DNA from: a virus
DNA length: 41,987 nt
Strand: one strand, 5' to 3'
IMG/VR virus record: IMGVR_UViG_3300032246_001717
Coordinates: 1 to 41,987 of that record
Under the pieces are notes generated by a model that saw only the letters and a program-made list of their open reading frames with translations, was not told the DNA's origin and did not search any database. Shown one piece after another: positions 60 through 41,987 of this stretch. Each line of letters starts with the position of its first letter. Within the stretch, counting starts at the first letter, position 1. The position numbers and the translations under genes are program-made.

Positions 60-689
60 TCACTTGCCGCCATATCCGCGAGCAATATCATCAAGCTTCT
101 TCTGAAAGCCTTTAACAAATTCTTGATTGATCAGTTGTGCAGTATTCATCTGCAGCTCTTGAGCGTGCCGACCCTTGCCAAGGAAGATCGATCCAACTGA
201 TGGGCCGTAAACGGTGTGAAGCTTGCCTTGGCTGTCCTTGCGGACTACCAACTGATTGCCGCTCTTGCCGGTGATGACAAAGGCCCCAGAGAACTTCTTG
301 CGACCATCAGCCCTAAGCACAATGGCCGACAGCGATCGGCCAGGCTTGCTGGGTTTACCCCAACCACGACCACGCCCAAGGCCAGGTTGAGGGCCTCCCC
401 TGGTTCCAGGCCTCATTCCGAATTGGGTAAGAGTTGGAGCACGACGACTAAACCTGATGGTTGCCGATGACCCATCAGGTGCAACGGTGGCACGGCTGAT
501 GTCGCTCTTGATGCGTGATGCTTTCAGGTTGTAGCGCTCGCCAATACCCTTAGCCACTTGAGTTTTGACAGCACCACTTGCCTTGGTCAAACCAGCGCGT
601 TGAGCCTTGGCGAAATTCTGGGGATTTGTAAAGGCAATCATTTTTTGGAGCTGGTCTAAGCCTTCAAGTTTTAAGGTGATTCCTGCCAT
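60..689 (-). CDS. Minor tail protein Z-like (gpZ family)
   Basis: A 209-residue basic protein that fits the lambda gpZ family, a tail-completion protein acting at the head-tail joining end of the tail. The N-terminal third has the family pattern of an alpha-helical stretch (KASGAVKTQVAKGI, then RYNLKASRIKSDI). It is followed by beta-type segments with IRFSRRAPTL, SAIVLRADGRKKF, GAFVITGKSGNQLVVRK and VYGPSVG. A Gly/Arg/Pro-rich insertion (about residues 92-118) precedes the SAIVLR segment. The ATG overlaps the stop of the resolvase gene (TAATG), so the two are probably translationally coupled. In lambda, Z lies between FII and U; here it sits at the end of the replication operon, on the far side of the terminus from the terminase. 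Function is by family resemblance only. Confidence 0.72.
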   Translation of the reverse strand: MAGITLKLEGLDQLQKMIAFTNPQNFAKAQRAGLTKASGAVKTQVAKGIGERYNLKASRIKSDISRATVAPDGSSATIRFSRRAPTLTQFGMRPGTRGGPQPGLGRGRGWGKPSKPGRSLSAIVLRADGRKKFSGAFVITGKSGNQLVVRKDSQGKLHTVYGPSVGSIFLGKGRHAQELQMNTAQLINQEFVKGFQKKLDDIARGYGGK

Positions 690-1126
690 TAGCCCACACC
701 CCCACCCTCAACACCCTCTACCACAATCTCGCACCCTTCAAGCTCACCCTCTAAGCAATAACATTTCATCGCAAGTATGCGGCAAACCTGCGAATCATCC
801 TTGAAAAGGACACCAGTCAAAGCGTCAAGGGTTGAACGCTGCAGCTTATCAAGATCAGGCTTTGTGATTACTCGCGTAGGTGCGCTTTGCTTAAGTTCCC
901 CCTTGGCGTTGTAATGCCCCTTAGGCCTAGCAAACCGAAAGGCCAGCTCCAGTGTCACAGCACCCATGGCCATAGGCTCCCCAGTCCGTAACGCCTCCTG
1001 CCTGACCGCCTCCCGCCAAGGCTTCAGGTTTGCTGATTGCTCTACCATGCGCCCGCCACCTACATGGCGTTTGGAACCCTGAGGTGCAGGCCTAATCCCC
1101 TGGACGTTGAATGAGATGTTGGCCAT
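689..1126 (-). CDS. rusA: RusA-like Holliday junction resolvase
   Basis: A 145-residue member of the RusA/YqaN endodeoxyribonuclease family. It resolves four-way DNA junctions made during replication and recombination, so that branched concatemers can be packaged. The diagnostic motif is present: KPDLDKLQRSTLDALTG followed by FKDDSQVCRI, which carries the acidic metal-binding residues. The N-terminal strand (ISFNVQGIRPAPQGSKRH) also fits. The length is slightly above the E. coli protein because of a Gly/Glu-rich tail. The start lies inside the 3' end of the upstream HTH-repeat gene (35-bp overlap). A copy of the dispersed dyad motif lies 17 bases before the ATG. Confidence 0.9.
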   Translation of the reverse strand: MANISFNVQGIRPAPQGSKRHVGGGRMVEQSANLKPWREAVRQEALRTGEPMAMGAVTLELAFRFARPKGHYNAKGELKQSAPTRVITKPDLDKLQRSTLDALTGVLFKDDSQVCRILAMKCYCLEGELEGCEIVVEGVEGGGVG

Positions 1127-1880
1127 GGTCTGAGGCTATCTGGGTTCGGGGTTGAAAGGCTGAGCAACTGCGGGCAAACGTGATTCCCTCCAGGCACTCT
1201 GGAATGTCAATCGTGCAATAACCCGGCCGCCTGACATCCACCCCGTCGTCATCATCAAACCGCCGTGGGCTGGCTTCAAACAGCTTGCAGTCCTGGCATG
1301 TGCGCATGAGGACGGCAGCAGGCACACGAGGCAAATCGGGACAAATGGAGCGACGGGTGCGACCAGTCCTGATGTCGGTGACGGTTGAATGATTAACAAT
1401 TTTGTGCCGGCGGGCCAGCTCAGTACAACTGACATCTAGTGGGGCCGTAAGGATGGACCGCACTATCGGCTCTGGCGTGCCTCGATTGTCACGCAATGCC
1501 TGACGCAAGGCACCAGGGGAGATCCTGGGAACGTCTTGGGCAATGCTGGCGCGTCGGCGGCCAGTCCTGATGGCTGTTACCGTCGCCGGCGGCAAACCAA
1601 GGTCGGCTCCAATATCAGCAGAGAGTACGTCAGCGGGGTGTGCAAGGATTGCCCGTACCGTGGCCTCGTCAACGCCATTGCGATCAAGCCAAGCGGCTTT
1701 CAATGTTGCCGAAGAATATCTGGGAATTTCAGGGCAAACAGATTTGTAACTTCGACCTGAGCGTATTCCATGAATAATGCTACGACTAAGGTTAAATTTA
1801 TCAACAAGCGTGCTGCTGTTGACTTCTAAAGGCGTTTTCAAGATCTCGCAAATGACTTCATCAAGAATTGGACCACTCAC
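1092..1880 (-). CDS. Protein with three tandem helix-turn-helix repeats and a Cys cluster
   Basis: A 262-residue protein I cannot assign to a named family. Three copies of a unit of about 65 residues can be aligned by eye: each contains a helix-turn-helix-like segment ending in IR[ST]GR (residues 39-43, 104-108, 170-174). Each then has a basic/Ser stretch, a P-[ED]-[IVL]-P-R or D-V-P-R turn, and L..A..D.(N)G before the next unit. Single modules of this kind (V..I..G+.W) accompany phage HNH and homing-type nucleases. The C-terminus has five cysteines (195, 198, 222, 229, 239) in a CxxC...GYC...C...C pattern, probably a zinc site. No nuclease motif is seen. The GTG start overlaps the stop of the preceding gene (GTGA). 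A sequence-specific DNA-binding role is inferred. Confidence 0.7.
   Translation of the reverse strand: MSGPILDEVICEILKTPLEVNSSTLVDKFNLSRSIIHGIRSGRSYKSVCPEIPRYSSATLKAAWLDRNGVDEATVRAILAHPADVLSADIGADLGLPPATVTAIRTGRRRASIAQDVPRISPGALRQALRDNRGTPEPIVRSILTAPLDVSCTELARRHKIVNHSTVTDIRTGRTRRSICPDLPRVPAAVLMRTCQDCKLFEASPRRFDDDDGVDVRRPGYCTIDIPECLEGITFARSCSAFQPRTQIASDHGQHLIQRPGD
1143..1160 (-). repeat. Dispersed start-associated dyad, copy A (divergent)
   Basis: On the minus strand the element starts TCAGCCTTTCAACCCCGA (minus-strand bases 1163-1146) and ends 17 bases before the rusA-like ATG. It overlaps the 3' end of the HTH-repeat gene. Compare copy D, TCAGGCTCTCAACCCTGA. Confidence 0.55.
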
Positions 1881-2158
1881 ACCCTTACACCCTGTAAATC
1901 TTTAACAACCAGCTCAGCATATCCAGCAATATCATGCCAGGAATCATCGTAGTTGTTGTCCCCATTAACAATCCTGCCAATCTTGTGGAAGATCATGTCT
2001 AGAGCTTCCTGTTGTATTGGTGGCAACTTTTTTCCCCGTGCGCATAGTTCATCAAATATAACTTCCTTAAGCGCCACCGTCACTTCGGCATGGCCCTTAA
2101 ACGGGCCGTAGCGGCCGCCGCGTTCAATCAGGGTTTCCTGCAATGTGTCCTGATTCAT
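1877..2158 (-). CDS. DUF6378-like phage protein
   Basis: A 93-residue protein with the features of a small phage/bacterial family annotated as DUF6378. These are an N-terminal ERGGRYGPFKGHAEV, a helical middle (QQEALDMIFHKIGRIVNGD) and a DSWHDIAGYAELVV end. The spacing of the acidic and His residues recalls all-alpha MazG-type nucleotide pyrophosphohydrolases, but catalysis is not established. The ATG overlaps the stop of the upstream gene, so it is part of the replication operon. The presence of ThyX and dCTP deaminase elsewhere makes a nucleotide-pool role attractive but unproven. Confidence 0.65.
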   Translation of the reverse strand: MNQDTLQETLIERGGRYGPFKGHAEVTVALKEVIFDELCARGKKLPPIQQEALDMIFHKIGRIVNGDNNYDDSWHDIAGYAELVVKDLQGVRV

Positions 2159-2427
2159 TCCCCCACCCCCGCAGCCCGCGCACGCAGAAAGCTAATCGCA
2201 TCGTCAAAGCTCAAAGGAAAGGGAGACCCCAACTGAAACACCTCCATTTCAGCAATGACATGGGTGATGGCGTTCTCCGCCAGCCGAGTTAGCCACATGT
2301 CATCAACGCCTACGGAATCCAGTGTCTCCTGAGACGACTCCACCAACCGGCCAAGCATGGTGGAGTTGTGGTAGCTGCGGACCCCACCGCCGATGTCGCG
2401 GCCAAGGGGGCTGGGTTGGAAGGTCAT
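2155..2427 (-). CDS. Hypothetical protein, small acidic
   Basis: A 90-residue protein not recognised. It has a Gly-rich N-terminus (PLGRDIGGGVRSY), then a predicted helical segment (DDMWLTRLAENAITHVIAEMEVFQLG) and a second helix (SFDDAISFLRARAA). No membrane segment or cysteine motif is present. It is the first gene after the 660-bp origin-like gap and is coupled to the next gene by an ATGA overlap. A dispersed dyad (copy B) lies 15 bases before its ATG, which supports this start. Confidence 0.6.
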   Translation of the reverse strand: MTFQPSPLGRDIGGGVRSYHNSTMLGRLVESSQETLDSVGVDDMWLTRLAENAITHVIAEMEVFQLGSPFPLSFDDAISFLRARAAGVGE

Positions 2428-2460: not shown

Positions 2461-2819
2461 GAACGAGGCTAGGGGGTGGGGTCGGGTGTTGACAAGGCTT
2501 AGGGGCCAGAGGGCCCCTGCAGGGGCTGCTAGGGGGCAGCGGCGATGATCTGACTGAGGACTAGGCGTGCGTGGCTGGCGATTGACTGAGTCCGAGCCGA
2601 TACGGCCTTCAAGAATGCTGCGCAGGCCAGGAGAGGGCCATGAGCGAACCCAAGACCCCCTGACCCGGCTGGGCCTCCGATGCGGTTTCAGGGTGGGCCC
2701 ACTCTACCCAGCCCCCCGCGCCCCGCCTTGCGGTAGGGGTCACGACCCAGCGGGGTGATGCTACTGCAAATCAAAAACCAGACTTTCACCTTGGGGGGGG
2801 GGGGGGTCATTAAAAACTG
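2461..2819. other. Non-coding stretch, G/C-rich, with a G14 run
   Basis: No convincing gene on either strand. It holds palindromic G/C blocks (for example CCCCTGCAGGGG near 2514) and a plus-strand TTGACA near 2488 without a clear -10. A run of 14 G lies at 2793-2806. The single plus-strand frame here has no family features. The homopolymer could vary in length by slippage or be a sequencing artefact. Confidence 0.6.
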
Positions 2820-3025
2820 TGGTAGCGGGAAAAAATCCCGCAAACTTCAGTCATACCAAGTCACCTGACGATTAAAACTGCGGGAATTTCATCGGGAATC
2901 GGGAATTTAGAAATTTCCGGCCCTCCCAAAAATTCCCGCGAAATTCCCGCGAAATTCCCGATTTGCCGATCTCCAAATCCTTTCCAGCGCAGTCACTCTC
3001 ACGGATTAATTCCCGAATTCCCTCT
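2820..3025. other. Candidate replication origin with iterons
   Basis: The octamer AATTCCCG, or its complement, recurs at 2881, 2900, 2931, 2942, 2953 and 3008, with shortened forms at 2893 and 3016. Three copies (2931, 2942, 2953) are tandem at an 11-bp period, one helical turn, and the left copies are inverted relative to the right ones. A hairpin GCGGGA-A5-TCCCGC stands at 2825-2841. The region is flanked by AT-rich bases and G runs, and lies directly after the primase-helicase gene. Iterons beside a replication gene are the classic form of a phage or plasmid origin. This is inference from layout. Confidence 0.6.
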
Positions 3026-3087
3026 TAAAGGGAAAAAACAATAGGGGGGGGGAGGTAGGAGTTAGATAGATGAGGATTACCAAATCC

Positions 3088-5238
3088 TTACAACTCGTCT
3101 TTGACGGCATTTCGGCCAGCCGTGGTTAGCTTCCAGGCCTTGCCATGTTTCTTGATCAGACTCCGCTTCCTGAGCCAAGTAAGGTTGTTGCGGATCGTGG
3201 CTTCTGTAAACTTGTGGAGGTCGTCCAGGATCGATCTGGTGTCCGTGGGTCGCCCCATGGCCTCGTGGATCTCCAGGCAGTCCAAAACGGCGCTGCGGGC
3301 GTTCCCGGTGATCTCCCCGTCGGTCACCTCGAACCCATCACCAGCCAGCCTGTACTTGAAATCCCTCGACTGGCTGCCCCGCAGCTTCAGGACAGACCAC
3401 TCATTGCAGGCCCCACGGTCCCCAGAGACCCGCGTGATCTGATGGACGCCCGATGGAATCTGATTGATGTTCTGAGACCCTGCAGCGGCCTGTACGCCCT
3501 TACCTGAGGCCTTGCCTCCTGCTGGGTGGTGCAGCCACACCAGCGAGCAATAACGGCCCACCAGGGCCTGCATGAACCTCATCAGGGTTCCGACTGGGCC
3601 AATGCCAAAATTGATGCCGGCCAGCTCAAGCACAGCCTTAAGGCTGTCGATAATCACCAGGCTGTAGCCACCGGCCTCAAGCTCATCGCGAAGCTCCAGA
3701 AGACCCCGAGGTGAGCAGCACCACGGCGGCATGGCGTCACTGGCCTCGGCGCTCCAGATCTCAAACCCGTCGATGATCTCTTGGTCGTCGTCCAGACCAA
3801 GATCCTCCAGATATTCCAGAACCATGGCGCGGGCTCCCTCGCCGCCGTCAGTGCCGATCCACAACACGCGGCCACGCTTGGCGGCATCCACCGGGATCTC
3901 TTGATCCAGGAATGGCCGCCCCTTGATCACAGCGGCGCCCATCGCGGCGGCGGCCATGGTCTTTCCTGCCCCACCGGCACCAAACAGCACATGGTCCCGA
4001 CGCCATAGCAGGAACCCTGGGACGAGGTCTTCAGCCGGTGAATCAATGGGGTCAGTGATCAGCCGCCCACGGCGTTGACCGCTGTGACCCTGCTGGAGGG
4101 GAAGGCCCCACCGGGCCGCCAGTGCAACCATCAGGCGGTCATCAATAGCATCGCCTCGAACCCCAAACGTAAACAGCTCCGCCCTGATGGCCTGCTCTTT
4201 CGCCCACTGATCGGCGGGTTCGAGCTTGAGGTCTAGAAGGGTGTCGAGCAAAGTTTGAATCTGCTGATCCTTGGGCGGTTCGGATGGTTGAGGCGACGCT
4301 GGCTCCGGCTCCACCATCGTCCAAAACACCTCAACCGCCGCCTCCGCGATGTCCTGGATGGCCATCTCGTCGCCGTCCGGGGCGTCATCAATCGATCCGC
4401 CGTCGGGGATGTCTGGCCATAGGTCAATGGCGGGAATAATGATGATCGGCAAGCCCGCCATGGCTGCGGCCTCGGCGGCGTTTTCAGCCCTGCGGCGCCC
4501 CTCCTGCTGATGCTCTGGCCGGCCTGGACCATCGTGATCGGCGAGGTAGATCAGGCCAGCGATGCCGGCCTCACGCAGCGCCCGGTAACGGGGGGTGATC
4601 TGCTCGATCGTGTGCGCGTGCCCAGGCTGGCTGATCGTCACCACACCGCAAGCGGTGGCAATCTCGGCGCATTTTTCGCCCTCGGTTTCCAGGATCCAAC
4701 CGACCGCGCCAATGGTGTCGGCATGGTTGAAAACGGGCCACAGTTCAGGGCCTGCACCTTTCTCCCATTGGCCCTCGGCCAGGAGGTGAAACCCGTAAAA
4801 GGCCTTGTCGCCATCGGGCAGCGGCACCCGCTTGACCAACTGAGTGTCGCTGTAGCGGTACGGGCTCCCAGCCGGCTCCCGTGGCGTCATGCGTGCCAGG
4901 ACTGGGGGCCGATCTGGCAATGGCGCTGACCTCGTCTTCTGGGGCTCTGCTGCCTTGGTCTGCACCGACCGTCTAGGTAGGCGCGTGGCGTCCCCATCGC
5001 GTGGCTTGTCCAGGGTGAAATGCCCAGCCCTGCTGTCCTTGGTGTTGCCGGTAAATGCCCAGGCCAACCCATCGGCGCCCGTGACCACCTCGCCGCGGCG
5101 GTGATCCTTCGGATGGTGACAGATCACCTCCAGGCCATCGCCACTGGTCCGGCAGTCCGAATCCTTCGTTCGACCGCAAACCGGGCAGGGGTTGCGTTTG
5201 CTGCTGGGAAACAGCCGATTCGTCGCGCCCTCCATCAA
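3088..5238 (-). CDS. Bifunctional primase / RecA-like replicative helicase
   Basis: A 716-residue replication protein. The N-terminus is a zinc-binding primase domain (Cys18, 21, 29, 40; CPVCG...C...CHH). Next comes a TOPRIM region with WILETEGEKCAEIA and GLIYLADHDGPGR, which holds the metal-binding Glu and DxD-like residues. After a Pro/Glu/acidic linker (about residues 280-330) comes an AAA_25/RepA-type hexameric helicase domain. It has Walker A GAGGAGKTMA near residue 421, a Walker B-like YSLVIIDSLKAV and a sensor WLHHPAG. A winged-helix-like C-terminus ends the protein (RNNLTWLRKRSLIKKHGKAW). It would synthesise primers and unwind DNA at the fork. The ATG overlaps the stop of the RHH gene (TGATG). 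The iteron region follows its 3' end. Confidence 0.88.
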   Translation of the reverse strand: MMEGATNRLFPSSKRNPCPVCGRTKDSDCRTSGDGLEVICHHPKDHRRGEVVTGADGLAWAFTGNTKDSRAGHFTLDKPRDGDATRLPRRSVQTKAAEPQKTRSAPLPDRPPVLARMTPREPAGSPYRYSDTQLVKRVPLPDGDKAFYGFHLLAEGQWEKGAGPELWPVFNHADTIGAVGWILETEGEKCAEIATACGVVTISQPGHAHTIEQITPRYRALREAGIAGLIYLADHDGPGRPEHQQEGRRRAENAAEAAAMAGLPIIIIPAIDLWPDIPDGGSIDDAPDGDEMAIQDIAEAAVEVFWTMVEPEPASPQPSEPPKDQQIQTLLDTLLDLKLEPADQWAKEQAIRAELFTFGVRGDAIDDRLMVALAARWGLPLQQGHSGQRRGRLITDPIDSPAEDLVPGFLLWRRDHVLFGAGGAGKTMAAAAMGAAVIKGRPFLDQEIPVDAAKRGRVLWIGTDGGEGARAMVLEYLEDLGLDDDQEIIDGFEIWSAEASDAMPPWCCSPRGLLELRDELEAGGYSLVIIDSLKAVLELAGINFGIGPVGTLMRFMQALVGRYCSLVWLHHPAGGKASGKGVQAAAGSQNINQIPSGVHQITRVSGDRGACNEWSVLKLRGSQSRDFKYRLAGDGFEVTDGEITGNARSAVLDCLEIHEAMGRPTDTRSILDDLHKFTEATIRNNLTWLRKRSLIKKHGKAWKLTTAGRNAVKDEL

Positions 5239-12994: not shown

Positions 12995-14281
12995 ATGGCG
13001 GGGAGCCTGGTCGTCGGTCACGCACGGGTCTCCACCAAAGGGGCCGATCAAGACACGTCGATCGATCAGCAGGTGATCGACCTCAAGGCCGTTGGCTGCG
13101 ACCTGGTGATCGTGGAGAGGGCCAGCGCATACAAGGGCCAGGCCCGGCCGGAATGGGAGCGGTTGCTGACGCTCATCGCCAGCGGACAGGCGCGGCGCCT
13201 CTACGTCGCGTCACAGTCCCGGCTGAGTCGCCGCGGGGAGGACGTGCAGTTGTTCCGAATGTGCGCCCGCCTGGGGGTGGATGTTCAGCTGTTGGACGGC
13301 ACGCCGGTGGACATGGAGGACCCCTCGTCGAAACTCATTACCGGGGTCGTCAGCCTCTGCAACGAAATCGACAGCGACATTAAAAGCCGGCGCATCAAAG
13401 CTGGTCTTGCCGGTCGAAAAGCTCAGGGCCATTACGCCTGCGGCCGGGTCCCCTATGGGTACATGTACGACGGCTCCCAGGTGCGGCCAGACCCAGAGAC
13501 GTTCCCCCTGGCGCGTCAGTTGTGGGAAAAATTGGAAGCGATGGAATTCAACTGCAGCGGGGCCCGGCGAGCGCATGGGCTGGACTGGTCCCAGAGAGGG
13601 TTGAATCGCTGGCTCGACAACCCGATGCTTCGGGGCGTGGTGCGGGGGGAGCCCGGCAGGGTTGAGGCTCTGATCAGCTGGGAAGAATGGCAACGCGGCC
13701 GGCAGTTGCAGGAATCCCGACGGGTGTTTCAAACTAGGGCCCCATCAAAAAAGAGGGTGTTCTCCAGTCTGATTCGCTGCGCTGGTTGCAATCGACGGAT
13801 GCACTACGCCGCCGCGTACGGCAAGCCAAGGTTCAAGTGCACCGGTGCCCAATGCAAATTTTGGGGTCGAGGCCTGGCGGAATGGAAGGTTCGGGACCAA
13901 GTGATTGAAACCCTGCGGACGGCTGCCGGACGGATGACCGAGATTGCTGCGGCGCCGGTTCAGCCTGCCGAGCCACCGGAGCGAATCGCTAAGCGGGCTC
14001 AGCTTGACCAGCTTGAGCAGCTGCAGGGGCAGGGCGTCCCTGGTCTGGAGGGGGCGATCGACGCTCTGCGGATGGACCTCCTGGCGCCACCGCCAGCCCC
14101 GCAATCAGCGAACTGGGCAGGGTTCCGGGACGTGCTGTTGCGACCGGGAACCCTGGAGGACGCCAGCGTTGACGAACTCCGCGCACTCATCCTGGAGCTG
14201 GTGGCGGAGATCATCTATGTCGGCGATCCCAACCGGGTCGAAATCCGGCTGAGAGATTGCCCTGGCAACGATCCGGCGTAG
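12995..14281 (+). CDS. Large serine recombinase (XisF/integrase type)
   Basis: A 428-residue site-specific recombinase. The N-terminal resolvase domain has VGHARVSTKG with nucleophile Ser13, DTSIDQQ, and YVASQSRLSRRGEDV. A Recombinase domain follows (AGRKAQGHYACGRVPYGYMYD; RGLNRWLDNPMLRGVVRG). Next is a zinc ribbon (LIRCAGCNRRMHYA...FKCTGAQCKFWG) and a helical C-terminus with a Leu-rich coiled coil. It would integrate and excise the phage, or act as an excisase like cyanobacterial XisF. It is shorter than phiC31 integrase. The start is ATG behind a non-SD leader. It implies a temperate life. Confidence 0.9.
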   Translation: MAGSLVVGHARVSTKGADQDTSIDQQVIDLKAVGCDLVIVERASAYKGQARPEWERLLTLIASGQARRLYVASQSRLSRRGEDVQLFRMCARLGVDVQLLDGTPVDMEDPSSKLITGVVSLCNEIDSDIKSRRIKAGLAGRKAQGHYACGRVPYGYMYDGSQVRPDPETFPLARQLWEKLEAMEFNCSGARRAHGLDWSQRGLNRWLDNPMLRGVVRGEPGRVEALISWEEWQRGRQLQESRRVFQTRAPSKKRVFSSLIRCAGCNRRMHYAAAYGKPRFKCTGAQCKFWGRGLAEWKVRDQVIETLRTAAGRMTEIAAAPVQPAEPPERIAKRAQLDQLEQLQGQGVPGLEGAIDALRMDLLAPPPAPQSANWAGFRDVLLRPGTLEDASVDELRALILELVAEIIYVGDPNRVEIRLRDCPGNDPA

Positions 14282-18278: not shown

Positions 18279-18755
18279 ATGGATTCATCTATCAATCTGA
18301 CCGAAATTTTGGCTAGCCATGCCAGCTGGTTGAGTGACAAAACAACCGGCAACAGGGCCAACCTGAGCTGGGCAAATCTCAGCGGGGCAAATCTCAGCGG
18401 GGCAAATCTCAGCGGGGCAAATCTCAGCGGGGCAAATCTCAGCTGGGCCAATTTGAGCGGGATTGCTGGCCTAGTTGTTGCTAGCGATGCCCCCGAACGC
18501 TTACGCGCAGTGGCAGTTGCTGCGTTGAAAGAGGGAGCTCTGGAGATGGAAAGTTGGCACACATGCGATACAACTCATTGCATTGGTGGGACAGCAATCC
18601 ACCAGGCCGGTGAAGTTGGGCGCCTACTGGAGGCTGCGGTAGGCCCCGTAGTTGCGGCTCTGATGCTTTTGGGCCCTGATGCTCATGCTCATTTTTACGA
18701 CTCCAACCAGGCGGCCACCGCATGGCTGCGCTCAGTATTGGAACAGCCGGCTTGA
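18279..18755 (+). CDS. Pentapeptide-repeat protein with a C-terminal helical domain
   Basis: A 158-residue protein. Residues about 24-62 hold tandem pentapeptides A-N-L-S-[GW] (NLSWANLSGANLSG...), which form a right-handed beta helix. The C-terminal part is unrelated to the repeats (ERLRAVAVAALKEGALEMESWHTCDTTHCIGGTAIHQAGE) and is helical, with two close Cys. A similar WHTC..THC..G.A.H.AG pattern is met in cyanobacterial and phage hypothetical proteins. DNA-mimic pentapeptide proteins inhibit gyrase, but the array here is far too short to claim this. Confidence 0.65.
   Translation: MDSSINLTEILASHASWLSDKTTGNRANLSWANLSGANLSGANLSGANLSGANLSWANLSGIAGLVVASDAPERLRAVAVAALKEGALEMESWHTCDTTHCIGGTAIHQAGEVGRLLEAAVGPVVAALMLLGPDAHAHFYDSNQAATAWLRSVLEQPA
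18361..18460 (+). repeat. Tandem 15-bp repeats coding the pentapeptides
   Basis: Unit CAGCGGGGCAAATCT is repeated four times without change, with diverged units at both edges. Exact identity suggests recent expansion. Confidence 0.9.
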
Positions 18756-18790: not shown

Positions 18791-19183
18791 ATGAACAGCA
18801 TCAATCTTGTCGGCCGCGCCGGCCGTGATCCTGAGGTCAAGTTTTTTGAATCCGGCAACACCATTGCGGAATTGAGCCTGGCGGTTCGAGGTCAAAAAAA
18901 GGACGAAACCGATTGGTTTAATTTGAAAATCTGGGGCAAGACGGCACAAATTGCTGCCGACTACGTCCGCAAGGGGTCGCTAATTGGCATCAGCGGTCGG
19001 CTCACCATTGAAAAATGGACCGACCGCACCAGTGGTGAAGAGCGGTCAAAGCCCGTTGTCGTTGTTGACCGCCTAGAGCTGTTGGGTTCCCGCGGCGACA
19101 ACGAGGGCGCCAATCCTGCAGGCAGTCGCCCCGCAGCAGCCCCAACTCAGCCCGCCCCAGGCGACGACGAGATCCCATTCTGA
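18791..19183 (+). CDS. ssb: Single-stranded DNA-binding protein
   Basis: A 130-residue SSB. OB-fold marks are INLVGRAGRDPEVKFFESGNTIAELSLAV, DWFNLKIWGKTAQIAADYVRKGSLIGISG and the acidic C-terminal tip DDEIPF that binds partner proteins. It protects single strands at forks and loads the Sak4-like protein. The ATG at 18791 fits the family N-terminus; a longer in-frame start does not. The sigma factor gene overlaps its stop (TGATG). Confidence 0.94.
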   Translation: MNSINLVGRAGRDPEVKFFESGNTIAELSLAVRGQKKDETDWFNLKIWGKTAQIAADYVRKGSLIGISGRLTIEKWTDRTSGEERSKPVVVVDRLELLGSRGDNEGANPAGSRPAAAPTQPAPGDDEIPF

Positions 19184-20043
19184 TGTCTCGCCGCGACGAC
19201 GCCACAAGCCATTGGATGAACGCGGCCGGTCGTCATCCTCTCCTAGCCCCAGCCGAAGAGCTGCACCTGGGCCGCCTAGTGCGCCGATGGTTGGATGACC
19301 CTGAGGCTTCGGCGCTTGCCCAACGCCGGGGCCGCCGTGCCCGTGATCGGATGGTCGCCGGGAACCTCAGGTTGGTCGGCACCGTGGTCCGTCGCGAAGC
19401 CAAAAAATACCCTCGGCTGGTTGGGCCCAGCGAAATTCCCGACATGCTCCAGGCCGGTGCGATTGGCCTGGTGCGTGGTGCTGAGAAGTTTGACCCCGAA
19501 AGGGGTTACAAGTTTTCGACGCTGGCCTTTTGGTGGATCTGGCAGGCCACTACTCGATGGGTTGCGACTGACTGCCGGACAATTCGGCTGCCGGTTGCCC
19601 ACGCTGAGGAGCTGAGCAAGATCTACAAGGCCACGGACAGGCTGGTTGAGCGTCTGGGGCGCCCCCCGACCCGGCAGGAGTTGGCGGCTGAACTGGGGAC
19701 CGATGGCGACCTCATTGATGCGCGTCTGCGTGCGGGACAGCCGTGCCTGTCGCTTGACTACATGGTTGCCAATGAAGATGATCAGGCATCTTTCCTAGAT
19801 TTTCTTCCGGCGCCAATGGCTGATGATCATTACGATCATCTTTACGGATTGATTGATTCTTTACCACCCCTTCAAGCGATGCTGATTCGAGAGCATTACG
19901 GATTGGATTCCTGCCGGTGGACTGGCAAAACTCAGCTGGCCAAGGATTTTGGCCTGACGACTGAGCAGGTGCGAAAAGAGCTAAGGTTGGCCCATGGGCG
20001 ACTGCAGGGGCAGGAGCAGCTCAGCCTCCCAACCCCGACCTAG
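19183..20043 (+). CDS. Phage-encoded sigma-70 family factor
   Basis: A 286-residue sigma factor of the primary/group 2 type without region 1.1. It has region 1.2 (MNAAGRHPLLAPAEELHLGRLV) and region 2 (MVAGNLRLV...IPDMLQAGAIGLVRGAEKFDP, then YKFSTLAFWWIWQATTRWV covering 2.3-2.4). Region 3 (RLPVAHAEELSKIYKATDRL, GRPPTRQELAAELG) and region 4 (LPPLQAMLIREHYGLD, TGKTQLAKDFGLTTEQVRKELRLA) follow. The -10 reader YKFSTLAFWWIWQA differs from the usual YKFSTYAYWWIRQA. It could redirect host RNA polymerase to phage promoters. It ends the operon before a strong terminator. Confidence 0.92.
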   Translation: MSRRDDATSHWMNAAGRHPLLAPAEELHLGRLVRRWLDDPEASALAQRRGRRARDRMVAGNLRLVGTVVRREAKKYPRLVGPSEIPDMLQAGAIGLVRGAEKFDPERGYKFSTLAFWWIWQATTRWVATDCRTIRLPVAHAEELSKIYKATDRLVERLGRPPTRQELAAELGTDGDLIDARLRAGQPCLSLDYMVANEDDQASFLDFLPAPMADDHYDHLYGLIDSLPPLQAMLIREHYGLDSCRWTGKTQLAKDFGLTTEQVRKELRLAHGRLQGQEQLSLPTPT

Positions 20044-40999: not shown

Positions 41000-41857
41000 T
41001 TAGATCATGGCAAGCTGGTTTACTGCGCCACCCGTCCAGCCAAGGGTGCGGCAAATTTTTCTCCACCTCAGCTCCGTAAAGACTGACTGTGATCTATACC
41101 ATGATTCAATCTCTTTGTCCCGCTTGCTATAGTTGCATGTCCTACATGCAGGCAAAATGTTTCCTATTGCGTGCGTACCACCTTTTGAGATAGGAATAGC
41201 GTGCTCGATTTGCATGTCTCCGCTTTGACCACAGTACGCGCAGCAGTTGTTAAACAGCTCAAACCGTTCTTTGATTTTCTCTGGTGAGACTTCAATAAAA
41301 GTATTTCCTTTTATTCTGGCTTTTCTGCGTTTTGATTTATCTCTGTTGTAAAGCCGAAGCTTTGGTTTTGTTTGATACTCAAGCCACCAACTAGCTTGGC
41401 CCCATTGGCGGTCGTGATCGGCTTTGGCGCTGGGGTTTTCGCGCCAGTAGCGGAGCTGTTCATTCATCACCAAGCGGGCCACGCTGAGGGATCGACCGGC
41501 GGCCTTAAGGCCTTTATTCAATACGCTTTGCTCTGATCCGGCAGGTGCGTTATTTCTTTCAGTGCCACGGGATGTCAATCCCTGCTCCTTAAATGCCTGC
41601 CTAATTCTTTCTTTATATTGATTTCGCTTAGATTTTGCTTCTGGTGTTTGATTATATTGTTTGCGATATTCTTTTAATTTATTTAATGTTTCAACGTCTT
41701 TAGGCCTGTTTGCAATGGATATTTTTTCGCATTCAAGGCAAGCACCTTTTGCCGCATTCCTTCTAAGGCTTTGATTGGTTCCCTGCCATTGATGGCCGCG
41801 GTTGCAAAGAGTTCCAAGCTTGAATTTTGCTTGATCAAAGCTGTAGCCTGATTCCAT
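41000..41857 (-). CDS. HNH endonuclease
   Basis: A 285-residue protein. The C-terminal HNH domain has NCCAYCGQSGDMQIEHAIPIS, GGTHAIGNILPACRTCNYSK and KRDKE. It shows the CxxC...H...N...CxxC pattern with His in the EH pair as general base. The N-terminal half is basic, with a CxxC-like CNRGHQWQGTNQSLRRNAAKGACLEC, written here in parts (CNRGHQW; CLECEK), as in HNH proteins with a treble-clef start. HNH genes beside terminase genes assist cos cleavage in HK97-type phages. The DNA is AT-richer than its neighbours, so it may be a mobile intruder instead. AGGA lies upstream of the ATG. Confidence 0.85.
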   Translation of the reverse strand: MESGYSFDQAKFKLGTLCNRGHQWQGTNQSLRRNAAKGACLECEKISIANRPKDVETLNKLKEYRKQYNQTPEAKSKRNQYKERIRQAFKEQGLTSRGTERNNAPAGSEQSVLNKGLKAAGRSLSVARLVMNEQLRYWRENPSAKADHDRQWGQASWWLEYQTKPKLRLYNRDKSKRRKARIKGNTFIEVSPEKIKERFELFNNCCAYCGQSGDMQIEHAIPISKGGTHAIGNILPACRTCNYSKRDKEIESWYRSQSVFTELRWRKICRTLGWTGGAVNQLAMI

Positions 41858-41975: not shown

Positions 41976-41987
41976 CTACTTGGCAGC
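41976..41987. repeat. Right copy of 12-bp terminal direct repeat
   Basis: Same 12 bases as at the left end. Confidence 0.85.

Follow-up and report, generated by a model that had tools for sequence, protein, structure and literature searches.

A phage protein with three tandem helix-turn-helix units and a five-cysteine domain, a candidate accessory regulator in relatives of Synechococcus phage S-LBS1

The window, which is an entire IMG/VR virus record (41,987 bases), encodes a 262-aa protein in which three predicted helix-turn-helix (HTH) units, of the type that homing endonucleases use for targeting, stand in tandem ahead of a five-cysteine domain. The family to which this array protein belongs is undescribed and has no Pfam or NCBIfam model, and we infer for it both DNA binding and a regulatory role. 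In our judgement an accessory DNA-binding regulator built of homing-endonuclease-type HTH modules is the best explanation, with a probability somewhat short of even.

Architecture of the array protein and kinship of its modules

The gene and its parts are as follows.

1092..1880, minus strand: whole array gene (P0001), 262 aa, GTG start
1680..1880, minus strand: HTH unit 1, residues 1-67, recognition helix about SRSIIHGIRSGR, G+C 42%; AlphaFold helices at residues 4-15, 22-29 and 33-41
1482..1679, minus strand: HTH unit 2, residues 68-133, recognition helix about PPATVTAIRTGR; AlphaFold helices at residues 72-80, 87-94 and 98-105
1302..1481, minus strand: HTH unit 3, residues 134-193, recognition helix about NHSTVTDIRTGR, pLDDT about 92; AlphaFold helices at residues 137-145, 152-158 and 164-172
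1149..1301, minus strand: five-Cys domain, residues 194-244, C195-x2-C198-x23-C222-x6-C229-x9-C239

The motif IRSGR lies at residue 39 and IRTGR at residues 104 and 170, so that successive motifs are 65 and 66 residues apart, which confirms the repeat period given in the initial annotation. Local alignment of the units with one another yielded scores of 69, 94 and 98, against 20–24 ± 4 for shuffled units, and in every pair the real score was reached by none of 2000 shuffles. A unit profile, built from an alignment that included these units, matched the protein exactly three times with an independent E < 1e-27 for each match. The structure prediction that had been proposed as a check was run as two AlphaFold models, one with four sequences as input (unit pLDDT about 65–79) and one of unit 3 and the Cys domain with ten rows, and three helices were predicted per unit, in the same register in all three. 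Cysteines 195, 198, 222, 229 and 239 are invariant in all 12 aligned family sequences, as is seen for the conserved ligands of zinc or Fe-S domain proteins, and the domain, which has a pLDDT below 50 in both models, probably binds metal. Alignments, profile, predicted structure and invariant cysteines together uphold the description of the protein as three tandem HTH modules ending in IR[ST]GR plus a five-Cys domain.

We found no match for the array protein in Pfam or NCBIfam, no defence-system match with PADLOC, and no nuclease motif within its 262 residues. The HNH endonuclease family phrog_59 matches residues 22–115 (E=4e-5), and this match is confined to the HTH part of the profile (positions 249–324). 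HNH and GIY-YIG homing endonucleases were also prominent among the best viral Foldseek matches of the unit, where the second-ranked match had a probability of 0.99 and 1.0 Å over 43 columns; the fold-search E-values for the unit were non-significant (best 0.2), and searches of the PDB by fold and by sequence returned nothing significant. The likeness to the trihelical targeting module of homing endonucleases is thus weak by E-value, and we assign the units to this type because the weak PHROG match and the fold matches agree. Free-standing HNH and GIY-YIG homing endonucleases (PHROG 59) carry C-terminal HTH modules that are likewise trihelical and sometimes tandem, and QDF14352 of Staphylococcus phage PMBT8 combines an HNH domain with three of them. 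The array protein differs in that neither an HNH nor a GIY-YIG catalytic domain was found in it (Pfam, NCBIfam, PADLOC, phrog_59), the five-Cys domain standing in its stead, and in that its gene occupies a fixed operon slot with a varying number of units. The earlier statement that such modules are known beside HNH nucleases, with none attached here, is therefore supported by PHROG 59, the fold matches and the lack of a nuclease motif. Its companion, that an array without nuclease is unusual, stands only in part, since no nuclease is attached here but an unrelated nuclease-free multi-HTH protein fills the same slot in other phages, and a triple-HTH HNH protein is known from PMBT8.

Family, operon slot and conservation of the units

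The family comprises 15 IMG/VR contigs, the window and 14 others, from phages related to Synechococcus phage S-LBS1, which is the nearest cultured relative of the window by its large terminase (85.8%) and came from Lake Bourget (PMC6157547). No cellular member was detected by pattern scan among 84,980 GTDB species genomes and no deposited phage member by tblastn in 50,697 phage records; the relatives are metagenome-derived contigs, many of them incomplete. Three units are present in the window, L042 and L043 (whose N-terminus is cut), two in L002, which lacks unit 1, and one in L003, L005, L006 and L032–L035, and the Cys domain is the same across all three forms. The surroundings of the array gene in the window are listed below.

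689..1126, minus strand: RusA-type Holliday-junction resolvase, directly downstream of the array gene
1877..2158, minus strand: DUF6378-like 93-aa protein (match below cut-off) of the same operon, next upstream of the array gene
2155..2427, minus strand: 90-aa protein without family assignment, the operon's first intact gene
2614..2753, no strand: operon leader, candidate operator
2880..2963, no strand: iteron array with copies of AAATTCCCG in either orientation, lying between the replication gene (716 aa) and the operon
3088..5238, minus strand: 716-aa replication protein, AAA_25 ATPase with a C-terminal winged-helix-like region

A GTGA start/stop overlap, present also in L002 and L042, couples the array gene to its upstream neighbour, and the array gene overlaps the start of rusA. 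A remnant at 2475–2610 is the 3′ end of a 95-aa gene, the bulk of which is deleted in the window; the gene is intact in L042 (4961–5248). Gene order is conserved, running from the replication protein through the iteron array, sometimes small genes, the array gene and the resolvase to the neck protein and terminase. The array gene directly precedes a Holliday-junction resolvase gene in every one of the 15 contigs, the resolvase being RusA in 11 and an unrelated PD-(D/E)XK enzyme in four.

In L017, L021, L022, L026 and L028 the slot is occupied by an unrelated 211-aa protein (7733–8368 in L026, 10803–11438 in L028) with Myb-like and HTH_17-like regions. Like the array protein, this cyanophage protein is encoded between iterons and resolvase, has several DNA-binding modules and lacks a nuclease, but it is not homologous to the array protein and has no Cys domain; it is likewise undescribed, and a resemblance to NUMOD1 seen by eye was not confirmed by Pfam. 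The slot of L018 consists of about 260 bp with no intact gene, nuclease-like and gp157-like genes (read from translations) fill the place in Cyanobium and Synechococcus contigs, and in S-LBS1 the slot genes are all absent. Because the slot is replaced or emptied in related phages, the array gene is, as judged from this comparison of gene content, accessory and exchangeable.

In the three phages with three units, each unit has its ortholog at the same position, with identities to the window of 63–74% for unit 1, 85–86% for unit 2 and 85–90% for unit 3, whereas units at different positions are just 26–47% alike. Units are thus far closer between phages than inside one protein, which rules out recent duplication. 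The recognition helices, which the initial annotation had described as divergent, do differ between units and are conserved by position, those of units 2 and 3 being nearly identical in all three phages. Orthology by position and the retained helices indicate that the array has been maintained rather than recently duplicated. The gene is genuine, with a dN/dS of 0.05–0.14 against orthologs of 79–84% identity, and purifying selection is evident throughout (about 0.04–0.2 over all comparisons and about 0.05–0.15 in 3-unit phages; between window and L042, 0.14, 0.07 and 0.09 for units 1–3 and 0.14 for the Cys domain), these ratios being rough since synonymous sites are near saturation in places. 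Given this selection and the orthology by position, the units probably read different sub-sites, and helices that differ between units but are kept by position make a composite binding site plausible.

Two observations bear on how units may be exchanged. The G+C content of unit 1 is 42% in the window, compared with 57–62% for the rest and 58% in L042, which suggests that unit 1 of the window was replaced by recombination. Between the window and L002, dS is 0.38 in the Cys domain and about 1.8–2.1 in units 2–3, a contrast that suggests module exchange.

Possible roles of the array protein

As an accessory regulator, the protein would bind DNA sequence-specifically through trihelical HTH modules as in the targeting of HNH and GIY-YIG homing endonucleases, with the five-Cys, probably metal-binding, domain taking the place of the nuclease. 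The 3-unit form would most likely read a composite site of consecutive sub-sites, because each unit keeps its own recognition helix, and the 1-unit form would either recognise a short site or bind DNA in oligomeric form. The gene lies where replication genes give way to late genes, with the resolvase next downstream, and the most likely role would therefore be transcriptional control, either of the operon that contains it or of the change-over to late genes. Consistent with such a regulator are the predicted trihelical units, the matches to homing-endonuclease folds and phrog_59, the position-wise orthology, the varying unit number, and the filling of the slot by an unrelated multi-HTH protein in other phages. 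Phage regulators are commonly replaced by non-homologous proteins, as are the lambdoid Q families beside rusA; lambdoid Q and the ArpU and RinA regulators lie near rusA or terminase and are replaced in this way, and Q of lambda combines an HTH with a zinc finger. The array protein may resemble these by position only, as a putative DNA-binding protein encoded beside a resolvase gene at the boundary of replication and late genes, and gene order differs in that the array gene comes before the resolvase; no similarity to the Q, ArpU or RinA families was found in Pfam, NCBIfam or PHROGs. Against a regulator, no regulator family was matched and no binding site found, and the sigma factor encoded by the phage itself (19183–20043) could drive late genes. 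The array gene is also absent from L018, S-LBS1 and the Cyanobium/Synechococcus relatives, so that it can be no essential switch in all of these phages. The non-significant fold-search E-values and the low model confidence of the Cys domain also count against this reading.

The leader at 2614–2753 is conspicuous as the intergenic one among the near-identical stretches common to the window and G005, the contig of L042 and the sole other near-complete record of a 3-unit phage. It is 95% identical to G005 over 140 bp, including an uninterrupted match of about 65 bp, and no counterpart was detected in 1-unit contigs. Coding stretches shared by the two, for example the tape measure gene, are just as identical, however, and the leader is for this reason a candidate site only. 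Structured RNA within it was unsupported (z-scores −0.49 and +1.62), and no Rfam family matched the window.

A bolder form of the regulator reading, which we hold more tentatively, is that the protein is a nuclease-free modular DNA reader, a phage regulator made of domesticated homing-endonuclease HTH modules, each unit reading one sub-site and specificity changing as whole units are gained, lost or swapped within the exchangeable slot. Within the family, homing-endonuclease-type modules occur by themselves, one to three in a set order, with every unit conserved at its position. Should the units indeed read separate sub-sites, the family would be a compact natural case of modular DNA recognition, with variants that differ by whole units, and the share of each unit would be directly measurable.

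The invariable adjacency to a resolvase gene, which the array gene is never found without, could instead reflect an accessory of recombination or packaging, docked on phage DNA and working with the co-transcribed resolvase or terminase, for instance to steer the processing of branches ahead of packaging. We consider this unlikely. The two unrelated resolvase types replace one another freely beside either slot protein, an exchange that speaks against direct, specific contact between the proteins; L018 and L038–L040 have resolvase genes but no array gene; and gene order alone could explain the linkage. Slightly lower still we place the idea that the protein descends from a free-standing homing endonuclease as a relic or by-product, its DNA-binding part retained or amplified once the nuclease had been lost and now drifting or selfish. 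The module type, the PMBT8 protein with its HNH domain and three HTH modules, and the exchangeability of the slot all fit such a descent, but strong purifying selection and the conservation of both the five-Cys domain and the translational coupling speak against drift, so that a relic origin is possible and an absence of function is not.

Iterons beside the operon and other features of the record

The iteron array at 2880–2963 is likely part of the replication origin. It is flanked by long G tracts (2793–2806 and 3043–3052), and similar C/G tracts flank the iteron arrays of L005 and L006. Arrays of AAATTCCCG occur beside a 3-unit member (the window), 1-unit members (L005, L035) or no member (L018, L026 and others), and arrays of ACCAACAT in both L034, with one unit, and L042, with three. 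L034 and L042 carry a different replication protein, with a common C-terminal half (71% across the final 80 residues) that is unrelated to the same part of the window's protein, and the unit 2 and unit 3 recognition helices are kept in L042 despite its ACCAACAT iterons. The 1-unit L032 encodes an array protein 87% identical to that of L005 beside GTTCACAT repeats and a diverged replication C-terminus, and S-LBS1 has its own GCCTAACC array and no family member. Near-identical array proteins thus lie next to three different iteron types, and among related phages the type (AAATTCCCG, ACCAACAT, GTTCACAT or GCCTAACC) switches as a whole together with the replication protein's C-terminus. The covariation with iteron sequence that an origin-binding initiator would display was not seen for the array protein, and we reject the iteron array as its target. 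An origin-binding protein that reads the iteron or dyad array between replication gene and operon, as the initial annotation had suggested, would fit the several HTH units and the array upstream of the operon but is accordingly very improbable, the iterons being present or absent independently of the array protein. Origin iterons and array protein are neighbours that look linked on one genome and are in fact separate, and the array protein is most likely an exchangeable regulator that probably leaves the origin repeats close by unbound.

Terminase, portal, protease and tape-measure genes mark the window as a tailed phage. Its host is probably a freshwater picocyanobacterium, because relatives of its replication genes are carried on Cyanobium and Synechococcus genome contigs. 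An exact 12-bp repeat is common to both ends of the record (1–12 and 41976–41987), and L043 reads across the junction of the two ends; for these reasons the record probably represents the full genome, closed into a circle. The product of a serine recombinase gene at 12995–14281 resembles XisF from the fdxN element of cyanobacteria (NCBIfam E=1e-35, below cut-off), a hint that the phage may be lysogenic or excise in an element-like way. The RpoD-like sigma factor gene at 19183–20043 is a homolog of the annotated S-LBS1 sigma factor and its product a candidate driver of phage transcription. An HNH endonuclease gene at 41000–41857, separate from the array gene, lies between the neck and small terminase genes and looks inserted, since L043 has just a short gap there. 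Seven 15-bp direct repeats at 18335–18476 code for a pentapeptide-repeat stretch (ANLSG).
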